Assembly: GCA_020850535.1 (NCBI GenBank)
Contig: JADZEM010000097.1
Location: 1-57,437 of the forward strand
Direction of reading: 5' to 3'
Source: Chloroflexota bacterium
GTDB taxonomy: Bacteria; Chloroflexota; UBA6077; JACCZL01
DNA: 57,437 bases
The translations under genes and the position numbers were made by a program. Under the pieces are notes generated by a model. The model made no database searches, was not told where the DNA came from, and saw only the letters and a list, made by a program, of their open reading frames with translations. Numbering within the stretch: the first letter of the stretch is position 1; every line of letters begins with the position of its first letter. This document shows, in pieces, positions 3,757 through 9,876 of this stretch.

Positions 3757-3933
3757 CTCATGCACTGTTCAGGCGTCAACGCGACCGAGTTGTCAGTGGC
3801 GAGGGGTCAGTTCACAGTTCTCAGCTCTCAGTCCCCCGTCATCACCGCGCTCCACCCCCCAAACCCGAAACCCGAAGCCCAGAGCCCGCGACCTCGCCCG
3901 ACCACGCCGACTGGAGCCGCGTGCCCGAACGCT

Positions 3934-3950
3934 GTATTCTTCATGCAATC
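3934..3950 (+). promoter_or_regulatory. Candidate GntR operator/-10 element, LLM oxidoreductase 1
   Basis: GTATTCTTCATGCAATC, 77 nt before the GTG start at 4028. It shares the TCATGCAATC or GCATGCAATC core and the GTATNNT prefix with the sites at 11958 and 19632. No good -35 hexamer was seen. Confidence 0.5.
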
Positions 3951-4027
3951 CCCTGGTTCGGGCAGAGTCCGCCGTGTTTCCGCCGTGGGCGGCCCGCAGA
4001 AACGATTCAGTCGCAGGAGGCTTCTCT

Positions 4028-5047
4028 GTGAAGGTGCAGTTCGGGGTCCGCGTCCCCAACTCAGGTCCGTTGTCCAGCGTTGAGAACATGGTCCGCGCCG
4101 CCAAAGAGGCCGAGGAGATGGGCTTCGACTCCATCTGGCTCCACGACCATGTGGTCTGGAGCGGCGAGATGCACCGGCACCACATCTCCTCCGGCTCCGC
4201 CCACGCCATCAAGGACGACCAGAAGCCGGACTTCTTCGAGTCCGTCGCCGCGACCTCCTTCCTGGCCGCCCACACCAGCCGCGTCAAGATCGGCATCGCC
4301 TGCTTCGTGATGCCGTGCCGCAACCCGATCTTCCTGGCCAAGCAGACGGCCACCCTCGACCACCTGACCAACGGTCGGCTGATCGTCGGCATCGGCCTCG
4401 GCTCCAAGGCGTCGCTCGAGTCGAACGAGTTCGAGGTCTTCCAGGTTCCCTTCAAGAAGCGCGCCCCGCTCACCGACGAGTACACCGAGGCGATGCGGGC
4501 GATCTGGACTCAGGACAAGGCCACCTTCCACGGCCCCACCATCCAGTTCACCGACGCCGAGATGTTCCCGAAGCCGCTCCAGAAGCCGCACCCGCCGATC
4601 TGGGTCGGCGGCTGGACCGACAAGGCCGCCGAGCGCACGGCGAAGCTGGGCGACGGCTGGATTCCCGGCTGGCTCTCCCCGAGCGAGATGGCGCGCGGCG
4701 CGGGCATCCTCCGCGAGACGGCGAAGAGCGTGGGCCGCAACCCCGACGACATCACCATCGCCGTCGAGAAGCTGGCCTCCATCGCCGTCGACCGCGACAC
4801 GGCGATGGCCCGCGCCCTGCCGACCGTCCGCACCAGCAGCAACACCTACGAGCGCGACGTGGACAACATCCAGTTCGCCCTGGACCGGCACATCTTCGGG
4901 TCTGTCGAGGATGTCCAACGGCGGGTCGAGGAGTTCGTGAACGCTGGCGTCTCCCACTTCGAGCTGAAGCTGATGTACAGCACGATGGACGAGCTGTCGG
5001 AGCAGATGACGCTCTGGGCCGAGCACATCATCCCGAACTTCAACTGA
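4028..5047 (+). CDS. LLM class flavin-dependent oxidoreductase 1
   Basis: A 339-residue bacterial-luciferase-fold protein. Family signatures are the N-terminal AAKEAEEMGFDSIWLHDH strand-helix unit, the VKIGIACFVMPCRNP segment, GRLIVGIGLGS, and PHPPIWVGGWTDKAAERTA. Such enzymes use reduced FMN or coenzyme F420 to oxidise small organic substrates; SsuD of alkanesulfonate use is a member. The GTG start is set by AGGAGG seven nt upstream. A hairpin at 5057-5091 separates it from the MFS gene. The substrate is not deducible. Confidence 0.9.
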   Translation: MKVQFGVRVPNSGPLSSVENMVRAAKEAEEMGFDSIWLHDHVVWSGEMHRHHISSGSAHAIKDDQKPDFFESVAATSFLAAHTSRVKIGIACFVMPCRNPIFLAKQTATLDHLTNGRLIVGIGLGSKASLESNEFEVFQVPFKKRAPLTDEYTEAMRAIWTQDKATFHGPTIQFTDAEMFPKPLQKPHPPIWVGGWTDKAAERTAKLGDGWIPGWLSPSEMARGAGILRETAKSVGRNPDDITIAVEKLASIAVDRDTAMARALPTVRTSSNTYERDVDNIQFALDRHIFGSVEDVQRRVEEFVNAGVSHFELKLMYSTMDELSEQMTLWAEHIIPNFN

Positions 5048-6424: not shown

Positions 6425-6631
6425 TCGGACCAGGCCATGCTGACCACGCACGAGAAAGCCTCCGCGCCATCGCTAGCCGCAGTGGCTCATGGAAGGCGAC
6501 GGACGGATACAACCAAGCCGTCAGCTAGATCCCTTCGGCACTTCAGAGGGTCGGAGATCCTGAGTCTGGTTCAGGGTGCCCATCACCCGACTCCCGTGCT
6601 GGCGCAGGGTGAGAAGGTTGCGCGGCGCGCA

Positions 6632-9484
6632 CTAACGCACTGCCGAGGTCAAGGCACCTGCGAAACCAGTTGACTGGCTGGACCACGTATAGCCGTTGTC
6701 GGATGAGTGACTGACACTGCCACCCGTGGGAATCCACCAACTCGACGGACTTGCCGACTCGAAACCCATACCGGCTGTCGGATTGACTGTCCCGGCCGCA
6801 GTGTATGTGACACCCCCGTTCTCTGACACATTGAGTCCCGCACCAGACCCGCCAGCGGATCCAGGACTATAGAAGACGAGGTGAGCCAATGAGTTACTGG
6901 CGAAATTTCCGTTGCCAGCATTACCGTAGCTGACCTGCGTTCCGGCCAAGGATGTCGGCGACGTTACGTCGATGCGATGGACTGGCCCGGAAGAATAGCC
7001 CATATACATGCGCGACTGGTCATAGCTCGGCCACAACCGGTAGCCTGGCCCGCCAGCGATGAAGGCGTAGCCGCCCCACCATGTCGCGCCGTCGTCGTCG
7101 GTATAGTGCATCAGCGTGTCACAGTTCGAGCCGTTTGAGTTCGATGTGGGGATCGTGCGACGGAACCAGACTCGAGTACTCCCGGGACCAGTCGGAAGCA
7201 CGAAGCTATGCACTGAGCCCCACTGGTTCTTGTACCAGAAGCAGTGGGCTGGCACTTGGTACGATCCCAGCGCTGTCTGCGCCCAATTCCCGCCGTTCAC
7301 CGACTTCCACAAGATGCCACCGGACAAGGCATATCGGGTATCAGAATCCGGACGAATTGCTATGGTGTTGGTTGATCCTGGTGTGTCAGTGATTTGCGTC
7401 CAGGTCAACCCGCTATCGGTCGATCGATATTCTTTCCGCGTTCCGGGAGATCCTGCTGTCCGTCCGATAATGTAGACCAAATGCGGTACTTGGGACGGAG
7501 CGAAGACCACGTCGACCTTCTGTAGATCGTGTCCGAGATTCGACTGGATCCATGTCGAAGAACCGTCCACGCCGCCGCGTGAAATGAGGCCGTCCCCATT
7601 TGTGCCGATGTATACAATACGATTCAAGCTACTCGGCGGTGGGCTAAGCCTGAATCGACCATTGCCGACGCGGAAGGTTTCACTTACACTCACTGGAACC
7701 GTGCTGTTCCGCGCTGCTGCGGCCAGTTGAGATCCGGTGAGTCCTGGCTGGCCTTGACGTAGTAAGGCAGCACCACCTGCCACCACAGGTGTCGAGGCCG
7801 AGGTACCCGTAAACGTTCGACCAGTGACGCTTATTCCCGTCAGCGTTACAAGATCCGGCTTGGGCCTGTTGTCAGTGGTCGGTCCACTTCCACTGTATGC
7901 TGCTACCTGATCAGTTGGCCCCTTTTCAATGGCACCGACCATCACGGCCCCGGATGCACTGGTGTCAGCAGGATGGAGTAGGCTGCCTGCAGGAAACTGA
8001 AGCTCCGGCACCATATAAGTGTCAGATGACGTGGAAAAGGCTAGATCGAAAACCATGTTGGCCGTTGGCCCTGCTTGCCATTTAATTTTGAAGAACTTTG
8101 CGAAGATGGGACTCGGCGGAGCGATATCTGGAATAATCTCAAGCGGATGCATCGCCGAAACTCCATCGACACAGTATTGTTGATCAATCGAACTACCAAT
8201 CTCATTGAGTAACACATCATAGACGTACAGATCAAAGTCCGTGCAAGCAGCAGTCCAATCTGACATACCGTCAGAACCTGAATGGCGCCATCGTATCGCC
8301 ATTGTGATCTTACCAGCCCCACCAGCCGTCAGACCAAGTTGGTTCCCATGATTTAATCCATCATTACCGGTAAAGTTCATCCATCCATCACTGTCGCTAT
8401 CAACCCAGGGACCACTCCAGTGCCTTTGACCGTTGTTCGAAGTTCCTCCTACAAATGTCATCCCCAGAGCACTCGCCAAATTCACGGCATGGAGCGATCC
8501 GCCCACTGCGCCGTATCCATTTCCGGGTCCCTCGCCCTCGTCGTACAAGAATGCCATGGACATATTTATGATCTTCACACCCTTGCTATTTAAGCAATTT
8601 ACGGCGGCCTCTAGCTGGCTTCTTCCTTCCACATACGCCAGGTAAAATTCAGCATCCGGGGCTATGGAATTGATTATCTCTGCTACGTCAGTTCCATGAC
8701 GCTCACTCCCCCAAGATGTGGTCTCGCTACAACTCGTCATCTCTGTAGATATCGCGCCAAGATTTCTTGATCCATTAGTATAGTCATGAAATCCGCCATC
8801 GATTATACCTATCTTAACGCCAGTACCGGTAAAGTTATTGCCACTCCATATAGGGGCACCAATATCATTGAGCATCGCCTGATCGACCGTAGAAAGAATG
8901 GGGCGACTGGCACGATTGATCGAGACAATCGCGCTCTCCATTCCCAGCACCTCGATCTGGCGAAGTGGAACCATCGCCTCCAGATAGTCTTGCGTCCTGC
9001 CCACGACTCGAGACGAATACGCCTTTATGAGGCGCTCGACTTCAATTCCCCGGGTGGCTTGAGCACGAACCGAAACAAACACTGGTGAATTAAATGGAAC
9101 GCCAAGAGACCGGGCCTCATGAGCCGGTATGAGGCCCTTCTCGGCCTTTATCATCTGCTCAAGCGTATGGCCGATTCGGTTTCGAACGGGCTTTCCAGAT
9201 AGGAGAAGTCCGTTGCTGGCCTGACCTGGTACGCTCGGAGAGAGCGGCGAGTTAGGGGCTGGCACAGGCGACGCAAGTGGTCCGGTTGGCGCTGGCGATG
9301 CAAGAGGACGATTGGGCGATGGTGACGGACTTGGTGGAGTGCCCTGCATGATTGACCGAGACGAATCCTCCACTGTCTGAGGCCCGGCGTACGTTGACGG
9401 GACTGAACTCAAACAGAGCATGGATATGGTCAACGAGCCTATGACAAGCTGCCGCAGTTCGTTCCACCTACTCAACACGGTCAA
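6632..9484 (-). CDS. Secreted subtilisin-like (S8) serine protease with Asp-box propeller
   Basis: A 950-residue secreted protein. An N-terminal signal segment (about 11-33) is followed by a Pro-Ser repeat linker (48-90), a prodomain-like region (about 125-198), and a subtilase core with Asp229 (GIIDGG), His263 (ERHGTD), oxyanion Asn350 and Ser562 (GTSASTP). An inserted jelly-roll-like domain (about 388-485, with DFDLYVYD) splits the core. The C-terminal third has at least five Asp-box (BNR) hairpins of the form S-x-D-x-G-x-T-W, typical of a beta-propeller. The start is TTG at 9484, with AAGGGA just upstream, five nt after the previous stop. Base composition is markedly lower in GC than the flanks. 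Confidence 0.88.
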   Translation of the reverse strand: MTVLSRWNELRQLVIGSLTISMLCLSSVPSTYAGPQTVEDSSRSIMQGTPPSPSPSPNRPLASPAPTGPLASPVPAPNSPLSPSVPGQASNGLLLSGKPVRNRIGHTLEQMIKAEKGLIPAHEARSLGVPFNSPVFVSVRAQATRGIEVERLIKAYSSRVVGRTQDYLEAMVPLRQIEVLGMESAIVSINRASRPILSTVDQAMLNDIGAPIWSGNNFTGTGVKIGIIDGGFHDYTNGSRNLGAISTEMTSCSETTSWGSERHGTDVAEIINSIAPDAEFYLAYVEGRSQLEAAVNCLNSKGVKIINMSMAFLYDEGEGPGNGYGAVGGSLHAVNLASALGMTFVGGTSNNGQRHWSGPWVDSDSDGWMNFTGNDGLNHGNQLGLTAGGAGKITMAIRWRHSGSDGMSDWTAACTDFDLYVYDVLLNEIGSSIDQQYCVDGVSAMHPLEIIPDIAPPSPIFAKFFKIKWQAGPTANMVFDLAFSTSSDTYMVPELQFPAGSLLHPADTSASGAVMVGAIEKGPTDQVAAYSGSGPTTDNRPKPDLVTLTGISVTGRTFTGTSASTPVVAGGAALLRQGQPGLTGSQLAAAARNSTVPVSVSETFRVGNGRFRLSPPPSSLNRIVYIGTNGDGLISRGGVDGSSTWIQSNLGHDLQKVDVVFAPSQVPHLVYIIGRTAGSPGTRKEYRSTDSGLTWTQITDTPGSTNTIAIRPDSDTRYALSGGILWKSVNGGNWAQTALGSYQVPAHCFWYKNQWGSVHSFVLPTGPGSTRVWFRRTIPTSNSNGSNCDTLMHYTDDDGATWWGGYAFIAGGPGYRLWPSYDQSRMYMGYSSGPVHRIDVTSPTSLAGTQVSYGNAGNGNFASNSLAHLVFYSPGSAGGSGAGLNVSENGGVTYTAAGTVNPTAGMGFESASPSSWWIPTGGSVSHSSDNGYTWSSQSTGFAGALTSAVR

Positions 9485-9489
9485 TCCCT

Positions 9490-9876
9490 TTATGGCAGAA
9501 TCGGTGGTGTTTCAACCCTGACGCTGAGCACGTCTTCGTCGTTCGCAAGGTCACATAGGTCGCCGATCTGAACTCGACCGACGATGAATTGGTTTCGCGA
9601 GAAATGCACCTCAATATCGAACCGTTCAGTCACCGATGTATCAGTGCTCCTCAGTTGTATCCCTACGCGCGTTCGCTCGGCCTGGCTTTTTGAAAGCCGA
9701 TACCGCGAGTAGAGGGCACTCTGTAGCCGTGGGCAGTCGCGAAAGTTGTCCTCACGTGTGGGTCCAGTTCCCGTACCCAAAAGCCGCATCAGAACATCGA
9801 ATGCGCCGCCAAAATAGAGGACGCAAACAACAATTGCAGCACAACAGATCGTGACCACCGTCGGTCTAGTTGACAT
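9490..9876 (-). CDS. Small membrane-anchored protein with prodomain-like C-terminus
   Basis: A 128-residue protein with one N-terminal membrane segment (about 8-30) and a soluble domain. Its last 25 residues (VLSVRVETPPILP at the end) resemble the end of the prodomain of the protease encoded next, where the matching segment reads AIVSINRASRPILS. That pattern is typical of I9-type inhibitor/propeptide strands. The gene ends five nt before the protease TTG start, so the two are probably translationally coupled. Role as a separate prodomain, chaperone or inhibitor is inference. It shares the low GC of the protease gene. Confidence 0.6.
   Translation of the reverse strand: MSTRPTVVTICCAAIVVCVLYFGGAFDVLMRLLGTGTGPTREDNFRDCPRLQSALYSRYRLSKSQAERTRVGIQLRSTDTSVTERFDIEVHFSRNQFIVGRVQIGDLCDLANDEDVLSVRVETPPILP

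Follow-up and report, generated by a model that had tools for sequence, protein, structure and literature searches.

The window analysed here is a stretch of 57,437 nucleotides corresponding to contig C97 of a 7.65 Mb Chloroflexota genome, and it carries two adjacent genes on the reverse strand, on which all the window features described below are located. The first gene encodes a small protein of 128 residues, P0001 (9490..9876), identified from its open reading frame and translation, its homologues in the same genome and a predicted propeptide fold. The second encodes a secreted subtilase of family S8, which probably starts at a GTG codon at position 9478 (6632..9478, 948 residues) and is related to subtilisin BPN' by phmmer. 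An alternative TTG start at 9484 would yield a protein of 950 residues (6632..9484), and the residue numbers of the protease used here refer to this longer version. The preliminary description of this DNA placed the protease start 5 nt after the stop of the small gene. This spacing is correct for the TTG, but the GTG, located 11 nt from the stop, is the likelier start by analogy, since in a paralogous pair on contig C32 the protease GTG lies at exactly the same distance, behind an AGGAGG sequence. A split-gene artefact was ruled out, because both genes are separately equipped with a start codon and an N-terminal signal or anchor, and the layout is repeated across genomes.

The G+C content falls to 0.49-0.58 between positions 6500 and 10000 of the window, compared with 0.65-0.72 (about 0.68) around it. 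The C32 pair is likewise low (0.56 for the protease and 0.57 for the small gene), and this base composition suggests that both pairs may have an origin differing from the rest of the chromosome. Elsewhere in the same genome, the Asp-box protease gene of contig C45 has a G+C content of 0.58 and two other S8 genes have 0.70.

The window protease is composed of a Sec-type signal, a proline-rich linker, its own prodomain, an S8 domain with a beta-rich insertion, and an Asp-box C-terminal part. The Pfam Peptidase_S8 model (PF00082) matches it with 46.8 bits against a cut-off of 21.8, and the columns of the catalytic triad (Asp229, His263 and Ser562) and of the oxyanion Asn are invariant in 17 homologues, which places the enzyme in family S8. 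An AF2 model was computed for the stretch comprising the prodomain and the catalytic domain, with a mean pLDDT of 71.6. The presence of an own propeptide (8891..9127) is supported by both a prodomain-profile match and this model, in which the prodomain is complete and has a full alpha1 (strand 46-53, helix 58-67, strands 71-75 and 79-85, helix 86-92, strand 98-103); based on the BPN' register, the scissile bond is predicted between Leu197 and Ser198, within RPIL|STVD. The catalytic domain (7664..8806) contains an inserted beta-rich region that may correspond to the jelly-roll of the Csp subtilases, modelled as strands at 293-397 of this stretch, and Foldseek designated the Csp subtilases as the closest solved structures, both results being derived from a model whose mean pLDDT is only that stated above. 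The C-terminal region (6632..7530) had been described as an Asp-box propeller. Four Asp-box-like motifs were indeed found there by motif scan, at residues 688, near 795, 887 and 927, but all propeller models score below their thresholds, including a weak Sortilin-Vps10 match, so that the propeller is putative.

P0001 begins with a hydrophobic helix (residues 7-32, 9781..9858; Kyte-Doolittle maximum of 2.90 over 15 residues), which forms a membrane anchor without a lipobox, and continues with a prodomain-like domain (residues 48-128, 9493..9735), delimited by family alignments and by hhalign to protease prodomains, which contains two conserved cysteines, Cys48 and Cys108, and ends with the tail PPILP. 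The AF2 model, obtained with small-family rows only as input, shows, after the anchor helix, a helix at 53-61, strands at 68-75, 89-94, 97-103 and 116-121, and helices at 81-85 and 104-111, with a pLDDT of about 97 in the prodomain part. As sequence profiles of the small family and of the prodomains gave only chance matches in the PDB, a comparison of folds was needed. In the PDB, the first Foldseek match of the model was the CspB prodomain (E 9e-3, probability 1.00), an E-value that is weak in itself, as expected for a domain of 60 residues, followed by the propeptides of Tk-subtilisin, subtilisin E, Tk-SP, cucumisin and BPN'. The top matches are mostly subtilase prodomains, and ORF2 from Aeromonas (3wqb_B) appears at rank 48. 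P0001 is thus predicted to adopt a propeptide fold with a short alpha1 of five residues, and the ferredoxin-like I9 fold, the absence of which would have spoken against the preliminary proposal, was recovered in the model. With such a predicted fold encoded by a gene separate from that of the enzyme, P0001 has the distinguishing feature of the stand-alone propeptide-like inhibitors.

The anchor, which the preliminary description had rightly recognized as membrane-binding, is present in essentially all members of the small family. Most of them look like lipoproteins, with a lipobox detected by pattern or by eye, a hydrophobic stretch before it and mostly a Pro/Thr-rich linker after it, while P0001 and its homologue on contig C185 have a transmembrane helix in its place. 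The P0001 domain presumably lies outside the cell membrane. At the other end, 11 of the 14 small-family members stop 11-14 residues past the Val/Ile of beta4, and 11 residues separate this position from the predicted P1 in the window protease's own prodomain. The P0001 tail, PPIL-P, shares its residues P3-P1 (PIL) with the RPIL|STVD site of the protease and harbors a proline where P1' would be, a residue at which subtilisins cleave poorly. This match is a detail rather than a proof, because the C32 pair does not share the PIL motif at the predicted P3-P1 positions.

The resemblance between the two tails, from which the preliminary description started, corresponds to a correct and gap-free alignment that is not significant alone and becomes so only through family profiles. 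BLASTP of the small protein against the window protease found nothing at the prodomain, the best match (E 1.2) being elsewhere. By contrast with single sequences, an hhalign comparison of 10 small domains with 14 protease prodomains gave a probability of 97.6% (E 3e-12, score 65, 74 columns), against a score of about 11 for reversed profiles and 13.1 for the best of 60 column-shuffled controls. The score was 71.6 when the rows of the window genome were removed, and 31.6 when the four small proteins of this genome alone were compared with the prodomains of other genomes. In HMM searches, the small-family model found the prodomains of some 40 S8 proteases at the right place (best E 4e-8), and the prodomain model found several small proteins at E-values of 2e-12 to 1e-10. 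Finally, a lipoprotein from genome G731 shares 41% of 95 aligned residues with the adjoining protease's prodomain, and is similarly close (44% identity) to that of the G269 protease. Taken computationally, these comparisons show the small domain to be homologous to S8 prodomains and, with the predicted fold, bear out the earlier view of P0001 as a prodomain-like protein.

No Pfam or NCBIfam model recognizes the small-protein family. P0001 itself gave nothing above threshold in either collection, and the inhibitor family I9 (PF05922) had no match genome-wide, in the small family or in the protease prodomains of this type. The ORF_2_N model of Pfam yielded a match to a single family member (E 0.039) and none to P0001. 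The sub-threshold match of P0001 to RskA_N (E 0.19) was taken as chance. It is the one point in favor of P0001 being an unrelated membrane protein, such as an anti-sigma factor, that neighbors the protease by chance, a reading that the propeptide fold, the profile homology and the pairing described below refute almost entirely.

The pairing proved to be conserved, contrary to the outcome that could have contradicted the preliminary proposal. In all 12 loci found, distributed over 11 Chloroflexota genomes (C97 and C32 of the window genome, and one each in G010, G020, G112, G203, G231, G269, G425, G507, G522 and G731), an S8 gene of the same orientation comes immediately after the small gene, and every paired protease has its own prodomain. 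The intergenic distance is at most 14 nt, or the genes overlap, in eight of the 12 loci. The two genes stand 41 nt apart in G425, and in G203, G231 and G112, which are close to one another, the spacing ranges from 186 to about 500 nt. A profile search with five close rows retrieved four loci from Chloroflexi/Chloroflexales MAGs, all already in the set. The distances between small proteins and between proteases covary (r 0.81 over 11 pairs, permutation p 0.0001; r 0.58 over 9 pairs, permutation p 0.007), a behavior that is also expected from shared descent alone. The converse pairing fails: most S8 proteases with this type of prodomain have no such partner, so the partner is not needed in general. 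Profile matches in G083 and G175 were discarded as chance, their frames being without S8 domain or prodomain, and a 198-residue match in G613 is a protease cut by the contig end, not a small protein. The small gene of G010 (L030:2952-3653) has its lipoprotein leader upstream of the first in-frame ATG, GTG or TTG, which points to either an unusual start codon, such as CTG, or an error in the sequence. Our literature search found no report joining subtilase, propeptide and lipoprotein with Chloroflexi.

A tree was built from 59 sequences of prodomains and small domains on few columns (101) and is used here only for its main division. It separated the cysteine-bearing small proteins, together with the third domain of a protein encoded on contig C134 of the window genome, from all protease prodomains with a support of 100/99. 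The G731 lipoprotein, which has no cysteines, falls on the protease side. Eleven of the 12 paired small proteins thus form one clade with two conserved cysteines. From this separation and the position of G731, we conclude that the cysteine type is old and of single origin, and that G731 was recruited independently to this place before a protease gene. The preliminary description regarded P0001 as a second copy of a propeptide; it is indeed of the prodomain kind, but it belongs to this old separate clade and is not a recent copy of its neighbor's prodomain. In the family alignments, Cys48 and Cys108 (P0001 numbering) are invariant or nearly so. The former opens the N-terminal helical segment, the latter lies in alpha2, and the two could form a disulfide bond.

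Three further P0001 homologues are encoded in the window genome, on contigs C32, C185 and C114. The one on C32 stands immediately before the gene of a second Asp-box subtilase. The C185 copy (L006:9923-10291) is followed by the contig end with a transposase-like sequence, and the C114 copy (L007:about 7381-7860) by two ORFs, a short one of secreted appearance and one resembling a transposase, as read from translations; neither copy has a subtilase behind it, and from this gene content their partner protease may have disappeared or become separated from them. With the proteins of contigs C71 and C134, this genome has four stand-alone prodomain-like proteins that are not beside an intact protease. 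The C134 gene (L051:5055-6347, reverse strand) is a 431-residue ORF combining one canonical subtilase-type prodomain with two following domains of the small-protein kind, without a protease domain or an evident signal peptide; its domain content makes a multi-headed trans-prodomain possible. On C71 (L112, about 3910-4506, forward strand), an orphan full prodomain with a transmembrane anchor (...EKLDGALAAIAE...FVRAPAGR...) is part of a longer open frame that has no protease as immediate neighbor, and probably represents a further stand-alone prodomain of the type without cysteines. A third Asp-box-type subtilase, on C45 (L024:227-2545), has an apparently shortened C-terminal repeat part, and no small partner was found upstream of it.

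Textbooks present the prodomains of subtilases as intramolecular chaperones and as inhibitors that serve once. The Csp subtilases offer the nearest solved architecture to the window protease and the nearest solved prodomain to P0001. The CspB prodomain works in trans, blocks the active site with its P3-P1 residues and stays bound (PMC3567191); there, the lasting inhibitor is the enzyme's own cleaved prodomain, whereas here it would be provided by a second gene. Separately encoded propeptide folds, as here, are found in POIA1, the yeast proteinase B inhibitor, Arabidopsis SPI-1, TgMIC5 and Plasmodium SUB1-ProM, whose locus also adjoins subtilase genes. These stand-alone propeptide inhibitors are eukaryotic, and the three I9 examples among them were reported without significant sequence similarity to propeptides (PMC6993865), while the present proteins form a bacterial cluster with a membrane anchor and detectable homology to S8 prodomains. 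SpeB-Spi and the Bacteroides Bfp/Bfi systems combine a secreted protease with an adjacent co-transcribed inhibitor, Spi being a propeptide analogue and some Bfi predicted lipoproteins, and self-protection has been proposed (PMC2873492). The arrangement is similar to ours, where inhibition is deduced, but these are family C10 cysteine proteases with unrelated folds. A further bacterial case concerns the serine protease ASP of Aeromonas sobria, which lacks a propeptide of its own. Its partner ORF2 is propeptide-like, is encoded by a separate gene adjoining the subtilase, places its C-terminal tail at the active site, and acts as external chaperone and inhibitor with an IC50 of about 84 nM (PMC5638518). 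The ORF2 gene is downstream of asp and needed for ASP maturation, whereas the small gene is upstream and the paired proteases, unlike ASP, carry a prodomain; the small protein further differs from ORF2 by its membrane anchor, its cysteine pair and its lack of a Pfam ORF_2_N assignment.

The open reading frames, fold, homology, pairing and anchor of the small protein were all established computationally. From them, we consider it probable that P0001 is a membrane-tethered trans-prodomain acting as a product-like inhibitor, in the role of a surface guard or immunity factor, perhaps also as a foldase. The secreted subtilase would be accompanied by a second prodomain, encoded upstream and fixed to the outside of the cell membrane. 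Encoded first, this tethered prodomain would wait for the protease emerging from Sec or returning to the surface, and bind the catalytic domain in the same way as the prodomain within the protease. The C-terminal tail of the tethered domain would then sit product-like in the active-site cleft and block the enzyme, so that the cell's own envelope would be spared, as surface immunity or a local gate, while the released protease could act at a distance. Help in folding, as the preliminary description also envisaged, may be a second role.

If the tethered domain mainly templated folding of the nascent protease, as ORF2 does for ASP, inhibition would be a by-product. The propeptide fold, the operon-like arrangement, the ORF2 structure among the Foldseek matches, the single ORF_2_N match in the family and the requirement of ORF2 for ASP maturation (PMC5638518) are consistent with this. 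We nevertheless regard it as rather unlikely: the external domain comes in addition to the prodomain that the protease keeps, which speaks against folding help alone in the manner of ORF2; most related proteases do without a partner; and the conserved cysteines suggest a long-lived, stable domain. It is less likely again that the small protein serves as a retention or delivery adaptor keeping the mature protease at the membrane to act at the cell surface. The nearly universal anchors and the high affinity expected of a prodomain, illustrated by CspB, which stays bound to its own (PMC3567191), fit such an adaptor, but the usual mode of prodomain binding blocks the active site and would leave the protease inactive without a release step, and no release factor was seen. 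Very improbable is a set of duplicated prodomains lingering beside proteases as neutral leftovers, as the unpaired copies beside transposase-like sequence in the window genome and the patchy distribution might suggest; frames, cysteines, anchor, tail length and adjacency are maintained at 25-30% identity across classes, and a second, independent recruitment reached the same gene position in G731.

Beyond the proposed tethered inhibitor at this locus, we tentatively suggest that such proteins may constitute a bacterial family for surface immunity that originated from the prodomains of proteases. Its members would be trans-prodomains with a lipid or transmembrane anchor and a stabilizing disulfide, matched to secreted subtilases, and would have arisen at least twice; the orphan and triple-domain paralogues of the window genome would guard against several subtilases.

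The small protein is a variant on the known idea of the stand-alone propeptide, represented by POIA1, SUB1-ProM and Aeromonas ORF2, in a family not described so far, and this analysis supplies a family definition for proteins left aside by the current Pfam and NCBIfam models. The uncysteined intermediate and the cysteine clade form a natural set of prodomain-derived proteins, in which the passage from a transient folding aid to a lasting inhibitor can be studied. The conserved combination of a membrane-held prodomain with a protease already equipped with its own suggests a way in which a cell may free a broad protease while its own surface remains undigested.
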